A stretch of 33,201 nt of DNA from Candidatus Sulfopaludibacter sp. SbA3. GTDB taxonomy: Bacteria > Acidobacteriota > Terriglobia > Bryobacterales > Bryobacteraceae. This document shows, one piece after another, positions 23,174 to 33,201 of this stretch. Position numbers and translations under genes: made by a program. The stretch lies in NCBI GenBank assembly GCA_945893365.1, contig CAMDED010000082.1, forward strand, positions 1 through 33,201. The letters run 5' to 3'. Below the pieces are notes generated by a model. That model was not told where the DNA came from and made no database searches. It worked only from the letters and a program-made list of their open reading frames with translations. Positions within the stretch are counted from its first letter, which is position 1; every line of letters starts with the position of its first letter.

Positions 23174-25762
23174 TCACTTCTTCGCCAACTTCCGCACCAG
23201 GTTTTCCAGCTTGCCCATCGACTGATCGAGCAACTGCGGCCTCGTCAGCACTCCCTCGAACAAGTCGCCCGTGCGCTCGAACCGTTCGAGCGCGTTCCGG
23301 AGGTGAAACTGCGACGGCAGCAGTCCGGGCGTCACTTCGCTCCAGGCGAGCGGCGTCGCGGCGGGTGCGCCGGGATAGGCCCGCAAGACGTAGGGCGCCG
23401 CAATCGTCTTCCCCTCTCCGTTTTGCAGAAAGTCGAAATAGACTCGGCCTTTCTCGCGTTTCGCTACCGCCCGCGGAGTCGTGAACAAGTCCGGACGCTC
23501 GCTCGTCACTACATGCGCCAGTACTTCCGCGAACGTCTTCGTCTGCTCGTAGGTGTAGACAGGCTCGACGGGAATGTAGACGTGCATGCCGTCTCCGCCG
23601 GTCGTTTTCGGATAACCCTCAAGTCCGAGCAGATCGAGCTTGCTCTTGACGAGGAGAGCCGCTTCCACAATCCTGCTGAACTCGCACTGCTGCGGATCGA
23701 GATCGATCAGAATGAAGTCGGGGAATTCTAGCGACCCGATGCGGCTCATCCACGGATTCTGATCGATACAGCCAAGGTTCGCCAGATACAGCAGCGTCGC
23801 CTCGTCGTCGGCAACCACGAACCGGATCGGAGCTTTGTTGTGCTCGGAAAACACGGACTCGAATCGCAGCCATGAGGGAAAGCTCGCGGGCGCGTCCTTC
23901 TGAAAGAACCATTCGCCAGCGATTCCGTCGGGATACCGCTTAAGCGAAAGCGGGCGATCCCGAAGATACGGCAGAATCAGAGGCGCGACGCCCGCATAGT
24001 ATTCGATGACATCGCGCTTGGTATACCCTTCGGCCGGATAGTAAATCTTGCGAAGATTCGTGAACTTGAGCCGATGCCCGCCGACGTTGCGGGAGACTTC
24101 CGCGCGGTCGTCTTCGAAAAATCGCGGGCGTGGTGTGGAATTGCGCTGCGGGGCGTCGTGATGCGCGGTGGCGGCAGGCGGAGCGGACGCGGGTTCAGGA
24201 GGCGCGTTCCCTTCATCCGCGTCGTCCGCCGGTCGCTCACGTACGCACTGTTCGGGCCGCACATCGTTCCGCAAGCCTAAGAACACAGGCGCGCGCAGCC
24301 GGCCTTCGTTGGTCCATTCCAGGAACTTCACCTCGCAGACCAGCCGCGGCTCGACCCACACCACCGTCTTGCCGATCCGAGGATCGTTCTCGAACGGACA
24401 CTCCTTCGTCTCAAGCGGCTTCAGAAGCTCGGCCACGACTTTCAGCATCGGACCGTCGAAACCGGTCCCGACGCTTCCGGCGAATACGAATCTCCCACCA
24501 TCCCGGATTCCGAGCATCAGCGCTCCGAAATGCTCACGCTTGTCCTCGGTATATCCGCAAATAGCGAAGTCCTGGCGCGACAGCACCTTGATCTTGAGCC
24601 AACTGCGGCTTCGCCTCGATTCGTACGGACTATCGGCGCGCTTTGCCATCACACCTTCGAGGCCACGCTCGCGCGCCGCAACTAACAGCGCCGCGCCGTC
24701 GGCAAAATGATCCGAAAAGCGCACGAGCGGACCGGGACGCAAGATCGAATGCAGCAGCGCCTTCCGTTCCAAAAGCGGCAGGCCGCGCAAGTCGCGCCCG
24801 TTCAGGAAGAGCGCGTCGAACAGATAGATCACGACAGGCCGTTTTCGCGCCAGATTCGCGATCGCAGCGGCGTCGGACACGTTGATTCGAGACTGCAACA
24901 ACTCAAAGCTTGGGCGGCCCTGATCGTCGAGCAGCGCGATCTCTCCATCGACGATCGCATCCCGCGCCGACAAGCTCTCGGACATCGCGCTTAGCTCGGG
25001 ATACTGCCGTTCCATCGCATTGCCGTTTCGCGAGACGAGCCGCACGCGCCCACCCTCGAGAAAACAGAGCGCCCTTACACCGTCCCACTTCACTTCATAG
25101 ATCCATCCATCGCCGGCCGGGAGCGCGTTCGCCAGCACGCCCATCATCGGCGCGGCGTCGCGCGGCATCTTCGACTCGGCCCGCGTGCGCGGCGCGGGCT
25201 TGACGTCGCGCGCGATTTCCTCCTGCGTACGCCCGGTCAGAACGCTGCGCGCCTGCGCTTCGACGTCCCAGCCGGTTTCGGCAAACGCGTCTTTCTTCTT
25301 CAGCAGCAACCATTCGTTGCCCTTGCCGCGCCCCTTCATGAGAACCAGCGCGAACTCGCCCGAGATTTTCTCGCCGTGGAGGCGGAACTTGAAATCGCCG
25401 CGCGCGATTTGACCCTCTGCCGGTAAGTCGCTCAGCACCTCGAATTCGCCGCGATCCCACAGCATCACGCTGCCCGCACCGTAGTTCCCTTTCGGAATAT
25501 TGCCCTCAAAATCGCCGTAATCGAGCGGGTGATCTTCCACTCTCATGGCGAGCTGCTTCGCGCCCGGATCGAGCGTGGGACCCTTGGGAACCGCCCATGA
25601 GACCAGCACGCCGCCCACCTCCATGCGGAAATCGTAGTGCAGCCGTGAAGCGTGGTGCCGCTGGATGAAGAACCTCCTGCCGGCGGCGCCTGTTGAGGCC
25701 TGAGGCGCGGGTTCAGGCGTATTTTCGAATTTCCGCTTGCGGCTGTATTCGGCAATCGACAT
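23174..25762 (-). CDS. ligD: Multifunctional non-homologous end-joining DNA ligase LigD
   Basis: This 862-residue protein repairs double-strand breaks with Ku. Domains run phosphoesterase, ligase, polymerase. The 3'-phosphoesterase has FIQRHHASRLHYDFRME and HPLDYGDFEGNIPKGNYG (about 31-165). The ATP-dependent ligase has the adenylation Lys225 in EVKWDGVRA, DGEIALLD, and EGVMAKR with WLKIK. The primase-like polymerase begins near residue 565 (LRKIYYPAEGYTKRDVIEYY) and has the metal-binding DLDP and TTGGDGMHVYIP. The ATG at 25762 is chosen because the open frame further upstream overlaps ku on the other strand. It is divergent from ku across 75 bases. Confidence 0.96.
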   Translation of the reverse strand: MSIAEYSRKRKFENTPEPAPQASTGAAGRRFFIQRHHASRLHYDFRMEVGGVLVSWAVPKGPTLDPGAKQLAMRVEDHPLDYGDFEGNIPKGNYGAGSVMLWDRGEFEVLSDLPAEGQIARGDFKFRLHGEKISGEFALVLMKGRGKGNEWLLLKKKDAFAETGWDVEAQARSVLTGRTQEEIARDVKPAPRTRAESKMPRDAAPMMGVLANALPAGDGWIYEVKWDGVRALCFLEGGRVRLVSRNGNAMERQYPELSAMSESLSARDAIVDGEIALLDDQGRPSFELLQSRINVSDAAAIANLARKRPVVIYLFDALFLNGRDLRGLPLLERKALLHSILRPGPLVRFSDHFADGAALLVAARERGLEGVMAKRADSPYESRRSRSWLKIKVLSRQDFAICGYTEDKREHFGALMLGIRDGGRFVFAGSVGTGFDGPMLKVVAELLKPLETKECPFENDPRIGKTVVWVEPRLVCEVKFLEWTNEGRLRAPVFLGLRNDVRPEQCVRERPADDADEGNAPPEPASAPPAATAHHDAPQRNSTPRPRFFEDDRAEVSRNVGGHRLKFTNLRKIYYPAEGYTKRDVIEYYAGVAPLILPYLRDRPLSLKRYPDGIAGEWFFQKDAPASFPSWLRFESVFSEHNKAPIRFVVADDEATLLYLANLGCIDQNPWMSRIGSLEFPDFILIDLDPQQCEFSRIVEAALLVKSKLDLLGLEGYPKTTGGDGMHVYIPVEPVYTYEQTKTFAEVLAHVVTSERPDLFTTPRAVAKREKGRVYFDFLQNGEGKTIAAPYVLRAYPGAPAATPLAWSEVTPGLLPSQFHLRNALERFERTGDLFEGVLTRPQLLDQSMGKLENLVRKLAKK

Positions 25763-25783
25763 GCTTCCCCATCTCTTGGGGAC

Positions 25784-25812
25784 TGGACAGCTAACCCTTT
25801 CTCGCTTAGTAT
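25784..25812 (+). promoter_or_regulatory. Candidate promoter for ku
   Basis: TGGACA (25784-25789, five of six to TTGACA) and TAGTAT (25807-25812) are 17 bases apart, and the predicted transcript would start about 20 bases before the ku ATG at 25838, leaving room for GAGGA at 25822-25826. This lies in the 75-base divergent gap shared with ligD. No end-joining regulator site is recognisable. Confidence 0.35.
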
Positions 25813-25837
25813 GATAGCAGCGAGGAAGACCAACGGC

Positions 25838-26701
25838 ATGGCAACCAGCGTCTGGCGAGGACATCTTACATTCGGCTTGGTTTCGTTTCCCGTGCGGCTG
25901 TTCAGCGCGGCGCGGAGCGAAACCGTAAGCTTCAACATGCTTCACAAATCCGATCACTCGCGCATCAAGCAAGTGATCTTTTGTCAGGCCGAGGAGAAGG
26001 CTGTCCCGCGCAGCGAACTCGTCAAAGGCTTCGAGTACGAGAAAGACAAATACGTAATTGTAGATGACGAGGAGATCAAGAAGGTCGCGCCCAAGACCGC
26101 GAAGGCGATGGAGATTCTCGAGTTCGTCAAGAGCGCCGACGTCGATCCCATCTATCTCGAAAGCTCCTATTACATGGCTCCGGAAGAAGCAGGCGAGAAA
26201 CCCTATGCGCTGCTTTTCGAAGTGCTGCGCAAGAGCGGCTATACCGGCATCGCGAAGATCGCCATGCACAACCGCGAGCACATCGTAGTGCTGCGCCCCG
26301 GCGACAAGGGGATTCTGCTGCACACGATGTACTACGCGGATGAGATTCGCAAGGTGGACGAATTCCGGACAAACACGGAGCTCGTGAAAGACAAGGAACT
26401 GGCGCTGGCCACAATGCTGGTCGAGTCGCTAGCGGCGGAGTTCGAACCCCAAAAATACAAGGACACTTACCGCGAGAATCTGCTGCAGATGATCGAGACG
26501 AAGAAGGCGGGACTCGAAGTAGTGGAAACGCCCGCGCAGCAGTTCGCGCCGGTCATCGACATCATGGAAGCGTTGAAGAAATCCGTCGCCATGGCGAGAA
26601 AGCCCGTTAAAACGGAGACACACGCCGCGCCTCAAGCGGCGGAAGAATTCGAACTTCACACGGCGGCTTCGCCCAAGCGCAAACGAGCGGGTGCAAGATG
26701 A
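25838..26701 (+). CDS. ku: Ku DNA end-binding protein
   Basis: This 287-residue homodimeric Ku threads onto DNA ends and recruits LigD. The N-terminal VWRGHLTFGLVSFPVRLFSA, the central CQAEEKAVPRSELVKGFEYEK (residues in the bridge region) and DVDPIYLESSYYMAPEE are standard bacterial Ku signatures. The C-terminal tail is basic (SPKRKRAGAR), as in many Ku proteins that bind DNA. The ATG at 25838 is used because GAGGA precedes it and homologous proteins begin at MATSVWRG; nine extra residues would come from the ATG at 25811. Its stop overlaps the next start codon by four bases (ATGA). Confidence 0.96.
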   Translation: MATSVWRGHLTFGLVSFPVRLFSAARSETVSFNMLHKSDHSRIKQVIFCQAEEKAVPRSELVKGFEYEKDKYVIVDDEEIKKVAPKTAKAMEILEFVKSADVDPIYLESSYYMAPEEAGEKPYALLFEVLRKSGYTGIAKIAMHNREHIVVLRPGDKGILLHTMYYADEIRKVDEFRTNTELVKDKELALATMLVESLAAEFEPQKYKDTYRENLLQMIETKKAGLEVVETPAQQFAPVIDIMEALKKSVAMARKPVKTETHAAPQAAEEFELHTAASPKRKRAGAR

Positions 26702-28209: not shown

Positions 28210-28371
28210 ACGACCAGGCGAACGTCCTCCGCGGATTCGCTTCCTTGTGCTTCCTCGACCAGGCCCGCGGCAATCTGGCCGGGCTTTCCCGATCTTTCGA
28301 CCCGCTCGGGGGTGACTTCCGTGAAATGAACTTCCGAAGTGCTGCTGCGCTCGCGCAGTCGCTCATGATCT
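28191..28371 (-). other. Coding-like tail without a start codon, behind the PPTase gene
   Basis: One minus-strand frame from about 28371 to the TAG at 28193-28191 reads LRERSSTSEVHFTEVTPERV and ends VRLVVYRTSL. It has protein-like composition and GC-rich third positions, but a TGA closes it upstream and it contains no ATG, GTG or TTG start. It begins where the PPTase-fusion gene stops, in a different frame, so a one-base frame change near 28370 would append about 58 residues after that protein's membrane segment. It also overlaps the end of the convergent ceramidase-family gene by 19 bases. Confidence 0.35.
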
Positions 28372-29178
28372 CCAAAAGTGACGTATCAACAGGGCAACAA
28401 CGGCCCCGACAACAAGAAGCGCAACGGAGGCGAACAGAATCCTTGGCCGGCGTGAGGGTCCGGCGGGGCCTGGAGATTCCGCGGGCGTTGCTGCGAGAGG
28501 TGCTGGCGTTCCTTCCCTGGACGGCTCGCGCCCCGGAGGAAACGCAACCGCGATGACCACCGCAGTCGCCAGTTCTCCGGTATGAGACAGACTGAGAGCG
28601 TGGGGCAATCGGACGGAGCCGGACGGAGTCTGCCACAGTAGGTAAGGTTTGCCGCCATGCTCGTGCGCGACGACCGTCGACTTAAAATCGACCTTGATGA
28701 AGGATGGATCGCATTTGCGCAGAGCTTCTTTTGCGCACCAAAACCCGGCCAAGTGGGTGCGCGGCTCGGACTGCACTACGGCATAAGCGATTTCGGACTT
28801 GAAGAACATCCCAGCGTAAAACTCGTGCTCCCAGTAGTCGCCCGCAACCGGGAGGGAGCGAACATCCTGCACGTCGATCCCTACCTGAACTCCGGCTACT
28901 ACAGCTTGGACGCGCACCATAGTGGTGTCGATTCCTCCAGTGCTCGGGGCTGGTGAGGCATTTGTTGGCTTCCCGAAGAGGGCAGCCTCCAGTTCCCCGA
29001 ATGTCGCTGGCGAAGACGCAGTGGGTAACGATAGTCCGAGACGCTTCAACCCAAGTCTGAGCTTTGCTCCACCCAGTGAGCTATCTAGACTTGCCAGGGA
29101 CGTTGCCGCAGCGACCTGATCGGGTGGCAACATCAGCATTGTGGCCACCATTCCTCGCAATTCGCTAACTTGGCTCAT
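28363..29178 (-). CDS. Acyl-carrier-like domain / AcpS-type phosphopantetheinyl transferase / membrane-anchor fusion
   Basis: This 271-residue protein has three parts. Residues 1-70 resemble an acyl carrier domain (VATMLMLPPDQVAAATSL, then LDSSLGG with Ser34 at the expected prosthetic-group position). Residues 90-215 match AcpS-type transferases that attach phosphopantetheine: GVQVGIDVQDV with Asp102, FWCAKEALRK with Glu151, and ALSLSHTGELATAVV. A proline-rich linker leads to a membrane helix (ILFASVALLVVGAVVALLI, 248-266). Its ATG shares one base with the E2 stop (TAATG), so it is translated with E2. I infer that it activates a carrier, perhaps its own domain, to receive an acyl group from E2. 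The carrier motif is not a textbook DSL. Confidence 0.75.
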   Translation of the reverse strand: MSQVSELRGMVATMLMLPPDQVAAATSLASLDSSLGGAKLRLGLKRLGLSLPTASSPATFGELEAALFGKPTNASPAPSTGGIDTTMVRVQAVVAGVQVGIDVQDVRSLPVAGDYWEHEFYAGMFFKSEIAYAVVQSEPRTHLAGFWCAKEALRKCDPSFIKVDFKSTVVAHEHGGKPYLLWQTPSGSVRLPHALSLSHTGELATAVVIAVAFPPGREPSREGTPAPLAATPAESPGPAGPSRRPRILFASVALLVVGAVVALLIRHFWRS

Positions 29179-30506
29179 TAGTACCCCGCCAAGCAAATTG
29201 AACAAACCGACCCGGGAGGGATCTCCGATTTAACGAGGATCGCCCCCAATTTTCTTAGTTTGCTTCCGTCCCTTTGGCATAGAACGCAAAACGGTTCGCT
29301 CTCTGGAGAATGAGGGCCATCCATCGGCGTGCGCTCTATTTCCGCGTGGACCTTTAAACGGCCGGAAAGATCTCGCAATAATTGCGCGGCCCTCCTTCCC
29401 TCGGCCAGTTGATGATCGAACGCCAGAGTGAGATGCAGAGTCTGCTCGCCGCTCTCACTGGCTATATCGCTCCCGACGCCCAGAATAGCCGATTGGCCTT
29501 GGCTAATCAGCGGCTGGAATAAACTGACGCCATCGCCGGAGAGATCGGATACCGTGAACGTTCCACCAAGGAAGTCGCCCGGAGCCAGCGAGTTGTCAAC
29601 ATAGGCATCGACATGCTGCTCCATGATACTGGCAATTTCCCGCAGACTCTTTTGGTCGGCATGTTTGATAACTGGAACAACCAGTCCCTGGCCACCGTCG
29701 ATAGCCCAACCAATGTTCACTTCCCGATACCGTCCCATCCGCCCCCGGTCATATAATGCGTTAAACATAGGGTACTTGTGAAGTAATCGCGCCACTTCGA
29801 AAATGATGAGAGCATTCGGCCCGGCGGTCGACAGCCCAAGCTTGTCTACTCGCGCACGGAGTTTCGGCGCCCGGCAGATCAACGTAACGGAGCTTTGGAT
29901 ACAAGCAGCCCGACCTATCCGCAGGATCCGGCCTTCGAGGACCTTTCTTCGCGCGAGGTCAACCCATTCCACGGGGACACCGGCCACCGGAGCATTCTCC
30001 GATTGTCCCTCTCTCCCCGTCCCGCTCTGCTGGTTTGGAGTAGGCAACTCCAGACCAGCTTCAACTTTGGGGGCTAACTTGCCAGCCTTACTGAGAACGT
30101 CGCTACTCCGAACCAGCGTGCCTGGTGGGAAAGCAGCCTGATCGATTCCGCACTCAGCGGCAACTTTCCGGGCCAATGGCGTGAGTCTGGCCGGAGGTAA
30201 ACCCGTCACAGGCGCCTTAGGCTCCGGCTGGGTTGCGACTAGCGTGGGCTCCGGTTCTTTCTGCGTCGCCGGAATGATCTCGCAGATAATCGAACCAACC
30301 GGCACCTCATCTCCAACAGCGGCCGCATACTGCACGATTCCGCCGTCGGGGGCGTGGATTTCCATCACCGCTTTGCTGGTCTCCACTTCGCAGATGAATT
30401 GCTCTTTCTCGACACGGGAGCCGGAGGCCACTTTCCAGGAGAGAATCCGGACAGTCTCGTCGTTCACGGTTTCATGTGGAATGGTAACTGTGATTGTCTC
30501 AGCCAT
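29178..30506 (-). CDS. 2-oxoacid dehydrogenase-type E2 acyltransferase with C-terminal four-Cys extension
   Basis: This 442-residue protein has an N-terminal lipoyl domain with Lys45 in VETSKAVMEI, a peripheral subunit-binding segment (about 106-140, LTPLARKVAAECGI), and a catalytic acyltransferase domain ending in AFDHQLAEGRRAAQLL. The active-site signature is HxxxEG (His365, Glu369) rather than the usual HxxxDG. After the domain is a 50-residue extension with Cys407, Cys410, Cys435 and Cys438 in CxxC pairs, a probable zinc ribbon not found in ordinary E2. E2 normally passes an acyl group from lipoate to CoA. Its start overlaps the E1 stop by eight bases. No E3 gene is near. Confidence 0.88.
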   Translation of the reverse strand: MAETITVTIPHETVNDETVRILSWKVASGSRVEKEQFICEVETSKAVMEIHAPDGGIVQYAAAVGDEVPVGSIICEIIPATQKEPEPTLVATQPEPKAPVTGLPPARLTPLARKVAAECGIDQAAFPPGTLVRSSDVLSKAGKLAPKVEAGLELPTPNQQSGTGREGQSENAPVAGVPVEWVDLARRKVLEGRILRIGRAACIQSSVTLICRAPKLRARVDKLGLSTAGPNALIIFEVARLLHKYPMFNALYDRGRMGRYREVNIGWAIDGGQGLVVPVIKHADQKSLREIASIMEQHVDAYVDNSLAPGDFLGGTFTVSDLSGDGVSLFQPLISQGQSAILGVGSDIASESGEQTLHLTLAFDHQLAEGRRAAQLLRDLSGRLKVHAEIERTPMDGPHSPESEPFCVLCQRDGSKLRKLGAILVKSEIPPGSVCSICLAGY

Positions 30507-32463
30507 GGCATAGCATCTCTAAGACGACCTTAATAATCGAATCGACGCTTGGCAGGCTCTCCATCTCGGCCGACCTGCAGGAAGGGAGCGGATGAGGAGC
30601 CGCGCCCAGCCGACGAGTCAATAGCGGCGTTCCCGTGCAAGACTCGTGAACCGCGGCAAGCACTTCCGCCCCAAAGCCACAAAACAATTGTCCCTCTTCC
30701 ACAACAAGCAATCTTCCGGAGACTCTCGCCGATTCAAGAATCGGCTCGATGCGCAACGGGTAGATCTGAGTCGGGCAGATGATCTCCGCCACGACTTCAT
30801 GTTCTTCGAAAAGCCGATCCATAACCTTCTCGGCGTCCACGAGACAAGCGCCATAGCACGCGATCGTGATGTCTGGCCTTGCGTGAGAGCGAATCCGTGT
30901 CGTGGGGAAGTCCTCCTCCGTATGCTCGCACCAGAAACCGGGAACGGTATGGTGCGTCACGTAGTCCCCGTAAAGTGTCTTATTCTCGATAACCAGCGTC
31001 GGCCGGTCGACAGTCGCAAACAGCCGGCCGTAAAGCGCCTGTGGGTCATAACGGTGATGAAGGGCTAGGACGCGGGTTCCCGGCAAGCCCAGGAAGTGTT
31101 TCTCCAAGCATTGGCTATGTGTTGCCCCGTAGCCTCTCTTCCCACCCATTGGTGTCCGGATCACAAGCGGCACCGTCACCTGATCGTTATACATCCAACG
31201 AAACTTGGATGCGTGGTTGATGATCTGATCGGCTGCGAGCGTCAGAAAATCTCCGAACATGATTTCGCAAACAGGATGCATCCCGCTCAATGCGAGCCCG
31301 TTCGCCAGACCGACAATCTCCGCTTCGCTAATAGGGGTATTCCGGACCCGTCCGGGGAACTGAATGCTGAGATCCCTGGTCACCTTGAATGCTCCGCCGT
31401 AGGACCCTTCGATATCCTCGCCCAGGAGGAACGACCGGTTGTCGGTTGCCAAATGATCGCGGAGCGCTTCGTGTATTTTGGTGACGACTCGTTCTTTTCC
31501 GGCAATGCTGGTCCGCCGCCAGAGTGGGGACGTCGGACCTGAACGATCTTCGCGTTCGCTGGAAGCGAACGGAGCGCACGATGCGGCCTCCACCGCCTTT
31601 GACACCAGCTCTTCAGAACGGTTCCACAGTTGGAGGGCCTCGTCTGGGTGCTCCGCCTCAAATTGGGTTAGTGGATCAATGGCCCAATAGTGCTCCAACT
31701 CCTCGCGCGGCCGATCATCGTCGCCCTTGGAGTGGGCCATCAAGCGGTACGTGTCGACACATACGAAGGCCGGACAACTGTTTTCGCGCACATGGCGGAC
31801 TGCGACCTTCATCAAATCCGTCAACTCCGCCGGCGCCCATGTGTTGCCGCGATAGGCGGCGATGCCGAAAGCTTCGGCCCGCTTGACCACGTCGCCCGAG
31901 AGCGTCTGGGACTGCCGCGTACTTTGTGCAACTCCGTTGCACTCGACGACGATCAGCAACGGGAGCAGCCAGTTGGAAGCCACGTTCATGGTCTCGTAGA
32001 CGATGCCCTCGCCGAGAGTTCCGTCACCAATGAACGCCACAGTGATGTTGTTCGCTTTAGTCAACTTTTGGGAAAGCGCCATGCCCGCGGATACCGGGAG
32101 CATGCCGCCTTGAACGCCGTTGCTGAAAACTCCACTGGCGCAGATGTGTTGGCTTCCGCCGCGCCCGCCGCATATACCGTTGGTGCGTCCCATCACTTCC
32201 GCCATGAGGCCATCCACGTCGCCGGTCCGCGACAAGTAGTGTCCGTGGCACCGATGGTTACTAACGATGAGATCCCCCGCAAGAAGGTGGCGAGCGACGG
32301 CGATTCCCGTAAACTCCTGGCCGATGCAGGTGTGAACCGTGCCGAAAAGCTTGCCCTCCGAAAACAATCTCAGGAGTCTCTGTTCAAAAGATCGGATGAG
32401 AAAAGCCTGTGCCCACGCCTCCGAACTGACCGATGAGATTGGGGAATTTAGGCGAATAGTCAT
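30499..32463 (-). CDS. Thiamine-diphosphate E1 component, fused alpha and beta subunits
   Basis: This 654-residue protein joins E1-alpha (about 1-265) to E1-beta (about 322-654) of 2-oxoacid dehydrogenases. The alpha part has SNHRCHGHYLS, GGRGGSQHI and the thiamine-diphosphate motif GDG (146-148) to Asn176. The beta part has LLGEDIEGSYGGAFKVT, NTPISEAEIVGLANGLA with catalytic-type Glu380, and GATHSQCLEKHF with His449. It would decarboxylate a 2-oxoacid, or cleave a ketose, and reductively acylate the E2 lipoyl group. The ATG at 32463 has GAGGA just upstream; the open frame beyond it has no matching sequence. It is the first gene of the operon. Fused alpha/beta forms also occur in NapB and QncN. 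Confidence 0.9.
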   Translation of the reverse strand: MTIRLNSPISSVSSEAWAQAFLIRSFEQRLLRLFSEGKLFGTVHTCIGQEFTGIAVARHLLAGDLIVSNHRCHGHYLSRTGDVDGLMAEVMGRTNGICGGRGGSQHICASGVFSNGVQGGMLPVSAGMALSQKLTKANNITVAFIGDGTLGEGIVYETMNVASNWLLPLLIVVECNGVAQSTRQSQTLSGDVVKRAEAFGIAAYRGNTWAPAELTDLMKVAVRHVRENSCPAFVCVDTYRLMAHSKGDDDRPREELEHYWAIDPLTQFEAEHPDEALQLWNRSEELVSKAVEAASCAPFASSEREDRSGPTSPLWRRTSIAGKERVVTKIHEALRDHLATDNRSFLLGEDIEGSYGGAFKVTRDLSIQFPGRVRNTPISEAEIVGLANGLALSGMHPVCEIMFGDFLTLAADQIINHASKFRWMYNDQVTVPLVIRTPMGGKRGYGATHSQCLEKHFLGLPGTRVLALHHRYDPQALYGRLFATVDRPTLVIENKTLYGDYVTHHTVPGFWCEHTEEDFPTTRIRSHARPDITIACYGACLVDAEKVMDRLFEEHEVVAEIICPTQIYPLRIEPILESARVSGRLLVVEEGQLFCGFGAEVLAAVHESCTGTPLLTRRLGAAPHPLPSCRSAEMESLPSVDSIIKVVLEMLCHG

Positions 32464-32518: not shown

Positions 32519-32692
32519 CCTCGAGAGCGGACACCCGATCTAGGAAGCGTGCGGTTCCAAAGGATGAGTGTATCCCATTTACCTCCCTTGCATCCAGGAA
32601 CTGCGATTGACGCGGTGGAAGGCCGCCATGGTTCTAGATGAGCATTCTCTTGAAATCTATCCAAATGGAACATTTCTATGGCAGAATGGTTT

Positions 32693-33201
32693 ATGCCATT
32701 CGTCACGAAGCGGCCGCCATTAACGCTGTCGGCAGAGGACCGGGAGAAACTGGAGATTCTGCGACGAACGTAGCGAAGAAAAGCGGAGAGTCGTTCACGC
32801 CGCCATTCTTTTGGATTGCACCGACGGGAACAGTGACAGTGCGGTCGCCGCTGCCCATCACATGAATCGGCACTCGGTCGCGCTGTGCGTCAATAAGTTC
32901 CTGAAGTTCGGGCTGGAGGCGGCTCTGGGAGAATTGCTTCGACCCGGCAAGCCCCGCCACATCTCCAGAAGACGCATTAGCCTGGGTGCTGCACCGCGTT
33001 TGGTTCAGCTAAGCCGTTCCAAATTGCATCGGATCCTGACGCAGGGCGAGACCCGGCCACATAAGGTCCGCTACTATGTGGAGCGGCGCGATCCGGAATT
33101 CGAACGGAAGATGGTCGAGGTTCTGCACGTGTACAAGGACGTGGAGATCGTGAACGCAAAAATGGTGGAAGGAACACTGAAAGAACCCACTACGGTAACG
33201 A
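32693..33201 (+). pseudogene. Decayed IS630-family transposase, running off the window
   Basis: The ATG at 32693 opens a frame (MPFVTKRPPLTLSAEDREKL) that meets a stop; a frame change near 32770 gives RSEEKRRVVHAAILLDC, then HHMNRHSVALCVNKFLKFG and EAALGELLRPGKPRHI, the helix-turn-helix region of IS630-type transposases. A further frame change near 32962 leads into PEDALAWVLHR, and a large internal deletion joins this to LSRSKLHRILTQGETRPHKV and RYYVERRDPEFERKMVEVLH, which continues to the edge. The catalytic domain beyond is outside the window. The element is dead. It lies next to the 5' end of the E1-E2-PPTase operon. Confidence 0.8.

Follow-up and report, generated by a model that had tools for sequence, protein, structure and literature searches.

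A 33,201-nucleotide stretch of Candidatus Sulfopaludibacter sp. SbA3 (contig CAMDED010000082.1, positions 1 to 33,201; this whole stretch is called the window here) carries on its minus strand, at 28363-32463, an operon of three genes that encode a fused thiamine-diphosphate-dependent E1, a lipoyl E2 acyltransferase, and a carrier domain fused to an AcpS-type phosphopantetheinyl transferase. We propose that this operon loads a carrier with an acyl group destined for a surface sugar, with the acyl unit passing from E1 to a lipoyl arm, then to the carrier, and finally to a sugar acyltransferase, bypassing coenzyme A (CoA). We give this reading a probability of about 0.58. The putative relay as far as the carrier is well supported by the sequences, and use of the acyl group on a sugar is supported by the neighboring genes and gene fusions of relatives. 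The window operon is intact but stands without informative context, and so the reading rests on those relatives.

The operon itself is real and intact. Its three frames, as called from open reading frames (ORFs), run in the order E1, E2, and carrier/AcpS, with an overlap of 8 bases between the first two genes and of 1 base between the second and third. The E1 gene (30499-32463, minus strand) begins with an ATG at 32463, immediately 5' of which lies the purine-rich GAGGAAAG, and encodes a 654-residue protein with joined alpha and beta parts that matches E1_dh, Transket_pyr, and Transketolase_C in Pfam. The 442-residue E2 (29178-30506, minus strand) matches Biotin_lipoyl and 2-oxoacid_dh, and an E3_binding match of 17.5 bits falls below the cutoff of 23.7. 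Its lipoyl domain lies at 30267-30506, with the lipoyl lysine, Lys45, at 30372-30374; its catalytic domain lies at 29334-29915, with the catalytic His365 at 29412-29414; and a C-terminal tail at 29181-29294 bears four cysteines (Cys407, Cys410, Cys435, and Cys438) in a pattern that resembles a zinc ribbon. The third gene (28363-29178, minus strand, ATG at 29178) encodes 271 residues, comprising a carrier domain (28963-29178, with Ser34 at 29077-29079), the AcpS-type domain (28537-28896), and a predicted C-terminal membrane helix (28369-28440). An E3-like ORF was looked for in the window, and none was found. The frames, overlaps, and domains agree with the initial annotation, made from the sequence alone, which had described a fused E1, a lipoyl E2, and a carrier/AcpS fusion with overlaps of eight and one bases and no E3.

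To place this operon among its relatives, 84,980 species genomes were scanned with an alignment of three E1s and two peptide patterns, and the best 80 of 564 relatives were kept. Together with two fetched loci and the window, these make a set of 83 loci, and the proportions that follow hold for close relatives of the window E1. E1, E2, and carrier/AcpS genes occur together in 40 of the 83 (37 of the 80 scanned loci, both fetched loci, and the window), with a gap of at most 15 bases between E1 and E2 in 38 of the 40 and between E2 and the carrier gene in 37. The carrier-AcpS gene thus follows E2 in 37 of the 80 scanned loci, across phyla; this co-occurrence exceeds chance, and the operon is widespread. 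The count includes L034, where an ABC-transporter gene separates two E2 genes, and binning errors may lie behind metagenome-assembled genome titles such as Klebsiella pneumoniae (L070) and Lachnospiraceae (L083). A search of genome neighborhoods for such triplets had been suggested by the initial annotation, which would have counted homologues that always adjoin an E3 and act with CoA against its proposal; as to the adjoining E3, one of the 40 triplet loci holds an E3-like ORF, and it is the only one among all 83 loci. The remaining loci comprise 20 with a lipoyl-hexapeptide fusion, 10 with an E2 core but no carrier gene, 2 that end inside the lipoyl gene, and 11 without a lipoyl gene; in 5 of these 11 the sequence stops less than 1.5 kb from E1, and in the other 6 it continues farther. 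Five of these last six, which have room downstream, are planctomycete, and one is from Saccharothrix.

On a tree of the E1s, the carrier-linked state needs 13 changes versus 27.8 in shuffles; it is clustered, yet gains, losses, or moves have been frequent. Among named E1s, the nearest carry the label Acidobacteriota. Of 396 genomes from the phylum of the window, 3 have the carrier-AcpS protein at full length (239, 236, and 224 bits), and the next match, at 94.6 bits, covers the AcpS part only. A search with the E2 gave matches in 60 of 61 close-relative genomes, none above 103 bits except in the window, and these were read as other E2s; the carrier protein had no match among plasmid records. 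Genome G000 has, at C11:595-3688, a second E1 of the fused kind (307.7 bits), and an E2 adjoins it.

The carrier-AcpS protein combines a familiar domain with a divergent one. Its first 95 residues have no Pfam name, and the AcpS part scores 33.3 bits against ACPS (cutoff, 25). When an N-terminal profile built from 35 relatives was compared with the Protein Data Bank (PDB), 14 of the 23 listed matches were named carrier proteins; the best of these, 2ehs (E value of 0.0046) and 6lvt (0.0053), align colinearly and end to end, and the alignment puts Ser34 on the DSL serine of PDB acyl carrier proteins. The top match overall is an unrelated designed protein (0.0027). An AlphaFold2 model from 36 sequences (mean predicted local distance difference test [pLDDT] score of 86) gives the carrier part as a small helix bundle, with helices at residues 3-14, 29-32, 34-46, and 60-68, in which Ser34 opens a helix, as the attachment serine does at the start of helix II in acyl carrier protein. 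The same model gives an AcpS fold and a last helix at residues 247-270. The AcpS part shares its fold with solved AcpS structures and with the phosphopantetheinyl transferase domains of fungal fatty acid synthases (Z score of about 15), but here it is fused instead to a divergent carrier and a membrane helix; the Foldseek and VIA-align lists were filled by this domain and barely tested the carrier fold. Ser34 is kept in 40 of 40 loci, as are the AcpS residues D102 (39/39), E151 (38/38), and K155 (38/38). Hydropathy predicts a membrane helix in 22 of the 38 carrier proteins that are complete, the window protein included.

Conservation in the E1 and E2 proteins is similarly strict. The E1 motif GGSQH is invariant in the clade (83/83); pyruvate dehydrogenase presumably has methionine at this position, and a reading of the motif as a pocket for a polar substrate was suggestive but was not used as evidence. 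The 40 triplet loci hold 41 E2s, two of them in L034, and all 41 keep the lipoyl Lys45, the Asn15-Asp16 pair, and the four tail cysteines. His365 is kept in 40; the sole exception is the second E2 of L034 (L034:13031-14365), which stands beside the first and has lost the catalytic histidine while retaining the lipoyl lysine and the four cysteines. In an E2 model with a pLDDT score of 85, the catalytic domain matches E2 cores, with a Z score of 25.4 to 3mae over 192 aligned residues (root mean square deviation of 2.3). A pattern for the canonical E2 motif had no matches among the sequences checked and was dropped.

The four-cysteine tail is a previously undescribed feature. By class, all 40 carrier-linked E2s show the pattern and none of the 20 fusions does; of the ten E2s that lack a carrier gene, only those of L061, L062, and L075 have it. 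Because the E2s of L061 and L062 sit after genes that we read as nonribosomal peptide synthetases (NRPSs) and that of L075 sits before a gene read as a polyketide synthase (PKS), the tail appears to go with carriers.

The link to sugar acylation comes from neighboring genes and from fusions. Neighbors were tallied by Pfam at an E value of 0.001, with random other genes of the same loci (a sample from 365 of 387 genes) as the control; gene calls were automatic, and some of the "upstream genes" are shadow ORFs. A Hexapep acyltransferase lies directly upstream of the operon in 18 of 38 loci, compared with 1 of 36 directly downstream and 4 of 110 control genes, and a family 2 glycosyltransferase lies directly downstream in 8 of 36. 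Local hexapeptide models place an acyltransferase beside the operon in 21 of 40 loci, but these models were trained partly on genes that they found, unlike Pfam, whose counts are independent. For instance, the triplet of L035 is flanked by a flippase-like gene, glycosyltransferases, and a hexapeptide gene, and the genes around that of L034 were interpreted as encoding sugar-nucleotide enzymes and an ABC exporter of the O-antigen type. The triplet of Niastella populi (L118) has a WcaF-like neighbor. Other types of acyltransferase also occur after E2, namely, an MBOAT gene in L090 and GNAT- and FemAB-type genes in L125.

In 20 loci, a hexapeptide acyltransferase of the sugar type is fused to the lipoyl domain, replacing the E2 core, right after the fused E1 (L072, L079, L082, L084, L086, L091 to L093, L095 to L100, L109, L120, L129, and L131 to L133). 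All ten fusions sent to Pfam show Biotin_lipoyl and Hexapep, with PglD_N between the two in four of these ten (L097, L099, L109, and L131, the last from Dokdonia pacifica), and the lipoyl lysine is kept in 20 of 20. A different fusion, in Ruminiclostridium sufflavum (L101:11941-19113), is a 2,390-residue protein in which a lipoyl domain and an E2 core are joined to ketosynthase, dehydratase, and ketoreductase domains and three PP-binding domains. The L101 fusion, along with the conservation of Ser34, the AcpS residues, Lys45, and His365, strengthens the suggestion in the initial annotation that a lipoyl E2 supplies a carrier whose phosphopantetheinyl transferase is built in. What that annotation overlooked is that the relatives point to sugar acylation rather than to peptide natural products. 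It had also remarked that it had not seen this exact arrangement described. Our searches of the open-access literature turned up no paper that deals with an operon of E1, E2, and carrier/AcpS genes or with fusions of lipoyl and hexapeptide domains, but in genomes the arrangement is common.

From the gene order, domains, conserved residues, neighbors, and fusions observed here, we infer each chemical step of the relay, as well as the sugar acceptor and the identity of the acyl group. A small donor would give up a two-carbon or acyl unit to the thiamine diphosphate of E1, and E1 would then reductively acylate the lipoyl arm of E2. The AcpS domain would install phosphopantetheine on Ser34 of its own carrier, and E2 would move the acyl group from the lipoyl arm to the phosphopantetheine arm, perhaps with the four-cysteine tail docking the carrier. 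The C-terminal helix would keep the carrier at the membrane, where an acyltransferase from a polysaccharide pathway, of the hexapeptide or another type, would receive the acyl group. For the fused proteins, the lipoyl arm may be the direct donor to the acyltransferase. Dihydrolipoate would be reoxidized by a shared E3 or by another oxidant.

Reductive acylation of lipoate leaves dihydrolipoate whatever the donor, so an oxidant is needed either way, and the missing E3 does not decide the donor. The argument of the initial annotation that the lack of E3 fits a ketose donor was rejected for this reason. Moreover, the genome has four Pyr_redox_dim (E3-type) matches elsewhere, one of them on contig C49 with an E2 1.3 kb away, and the single E3-like ORF among the 83 loci (L083:6080-6696, cut by the contig end) directly follows the carrier-AcpS gene. 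By analogy, our first guess for the acyl group is glycolyl from a ketose, because of the kinship of E1 with RenH and the published scheme for NapB/NapD; an acyl group from a 2-oxoacid is the second.

RenH, from the renieramycin clusters of Candidatus Endohaliclona (MK748462 to MK748465), is the nearest named relative in plasmid records. It is a fused E1 that is 47% identical to the window E1 over 650 residues, which bears out the kinship with tetrahydroisoquinoline pathways suggested by the initial annotation. The next gene encodes the lipoyl E2 RenI, just as E2 follows E1 in the window, but RenI lacks the four-cysteine tail, and the gene after it encodes a methyltransferase, with no carrier-AcpS gene in the annotated stretch. 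Two plasmid records do have a free carrier protein annotated beside E1 alpha and beta. According to the relevant sections of PMC7570522, NapB/NapD, QncN/QncL, and DinU/DinS/DinT are thiamine-dependent, E1-like proteins proposed to transfer a hydroxyethyl unit from d-xylulose-5-phosphate to a carrier. The window operon encodes together a homologous E1 (with RenH as the proxy), a lipoyl E2, and a divergent carrier, and NapB/NapD and QncN/QncL are likened to it by description. The dnacin set, as presented in those sections (PMC7570522), consists of DinU (306 residues), DinS (754 residues), and a free carrier, DinT (76 residues), with neither the AcpS fusion nor the membrane helix of the window carrier. 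Parts of a review of lemonomycin (PMC9268379) belong to the same background.

Other known systems resemble the operon in part. Pyruvate and branched-chain 2-oxoacid dehydrogenases share its E1 and E2 folds and the catalytic histidine, but the window has a carrier-AcpS gene, not an E3, beside E2, as well as the four-cysteine tail, and its E2 matches positions 58-225 of the 232 in the Pfam E2 model, with the N-terminal part of the model unmatched. Flagellin glycosylation islands of Enterobacteriaceae place acyl carrier proteins in sugar modification loci, although these carriers accompany fatty-acid-type genes, not E1 and E2, in the portions of PMC4875605 that describe them. AviB1/AviB2 and YerE bring thiamine-dependent two-carbon units into sugar pathways, but they form a C-C bond on a sugar carbon and are described without a lipoyl E2 or a carrier in the corresponding sections of PMC4425429.

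Several observations weigh against the proposed relay to a sugar. No acyltransferase or polysaccharide gene lies beside the window copy, which has an insertion sequence (IS)-like remnant and the contig end upstream. The upstream Hexapep enrichment has a Fisher P value of 2e-9, but the loci are related and the value overstates their independence; 20 of the 38 upstream genes have no Hexapep match, and some triplet loci, such as L069, lack sugar genes nearby. In L078, L080, L085, L089, L102, and L127, at least 8 kb downstream of E1 contain no lipoyl gene. The carrier is divergent, with PP-binding absent from the window protein and matched in 1 of 36 relatives at an E value of 0.24. Finally, E2 could use CoA as its acceptor. 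That last point is developed furthest if the operon is an ordinary 2-oxoacid dehydrogenase whose E2 makes acyl-CoA with a shared E3, the carrier-AcpS gene being adjacent by chance and serving another pathway. Thiamine-diphosphate domains and a lipoyl E2 with its catalytic histidine are both present, as in such a complex, the E2 catalytic domain keeps its fold, E3-type proteins exist elsewhere in the genome, and L083 has its E3-like gene beside the triplet. We nevertheless regard this as improbable, given that the carrier-AcpS gene recurs after E2 across phyla, that an acyltransferase has taken the place of the E2 core in 20 loci, and that E3-like ORFs are nearly absent from the set.

The triplet might instead supply a starter or extender acyl group for a polyketide or nonribosomal peptide, in the manner of the tetrahydroisoquinolines, rather than a sugar substituent. 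RenH (whose context, with RenI, we take to be NRPS), the PKS fusion of L101, our own reading of the genes upstream of L061 and L062 as NRPS-like, and ACP-E1-E2 cassettes from Streptomyces sp. NBC_01136 (NRPS cluster) and Paenibacillus (ketoacyl-synthase cluster) all favor this idea. We consider it unlikely. No PKS or NRPS gene was found among the window ORFs read, part of which were scanned with Pfam, on a contig that ends just upstream; in addition, the neighbors tallied for carrier-linked loci include glycosyltransferases and hexapeptide genes. Those same sugar gene neighbors would suit an E1 that builds a two-carbon branch directly on a sugar carbon, as E1-like pairs do in avilamycin (AviB1/AviB2) and are proposed to do in paulomycin (Pau11/Pau12), but the sections of PMC4425429 on these systems describe no lipoyl E2 or carrier, and with the lipoyl lysine and carrier serine invariant here we consider direct branching very improbable. 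A more serious, if still doubtful, alternative is that the family works as proposed and the window copy is an unused relic cut off from its cluster. Its surroundings (an IS-like remnant and the contig end upstream and ordinary, nonsugar genes downstream) and the patchy occurrence of the carrier protein, in 3 of 396 genomes of the phylum, are in keeping with a relic, and three open frames over 4.1 kb with all catalytic residues kept argue against one.

Descriptions of sugar acyltransferases generally give acyl-CoA as the donor. If the proposed relay to a sugar is correct, glycan acylation would have a new source of donors, lipoyl- or carrier-borne and made by a dedicated thiamine enzyme; this would explain the presence of such E1 genes in polysaccharide clusters and would give structural chemists a reason to search these glycans for unusual acyl groups. 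With the lipoyl-hexapeptide fusions, two proteins are enough to test such a relay, and the self-priming carrier and four-cysteine E2 tail offer handles for finding more systems of this kind. More tentatively, and at somewhat less than even odds, we suggest a general mode of CoA-free glycan decoration, in which the lipoyl arm would act as acyl donor, directly or via a self-priming membrane carrier, for acyl groups poorly supplied by CoA metabolism (e.g., glycolyl), with one E1 clade feeding sugars, polyketides, and peptides.

The surroundings of the window copy lie outside the proposed relay. Upstream of the operon, at 32634-33201 (no strand assigned), a repeated element with 11 matches in the genome bears a transposase remnant and reaches the contig end. 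The remnant matches only HTH_31 in Pfam (E value of 0.0021) and is presumably IS630-like, judging by the style of its sequence; a fuller copy of the element is at L177:8410-9411. Contig C203 starts with the window's last 149 bases, and no recognizable acyltransferase was found there. A partner elsewhere in the genome was sought with the hexapeptide protein of L060, but the one match (38%) was serine acetyltransferase-like with ordinary neighbors and was rejected. Downstream of the operon is a ceramidase-like gene, and 23174-26323 encodes an ordinary LigD with phosphoesterase, ligase, and primase-polymerase domains. Among the relatives, a lipoyl-synthase-like radical S-adenosylmethionine gene adjoins E1-E2 at L061:13127-14182, and lantibiotic-dehydratase-type genes lie beside E1s at L062:13306-15972 and L127:7699-9969.

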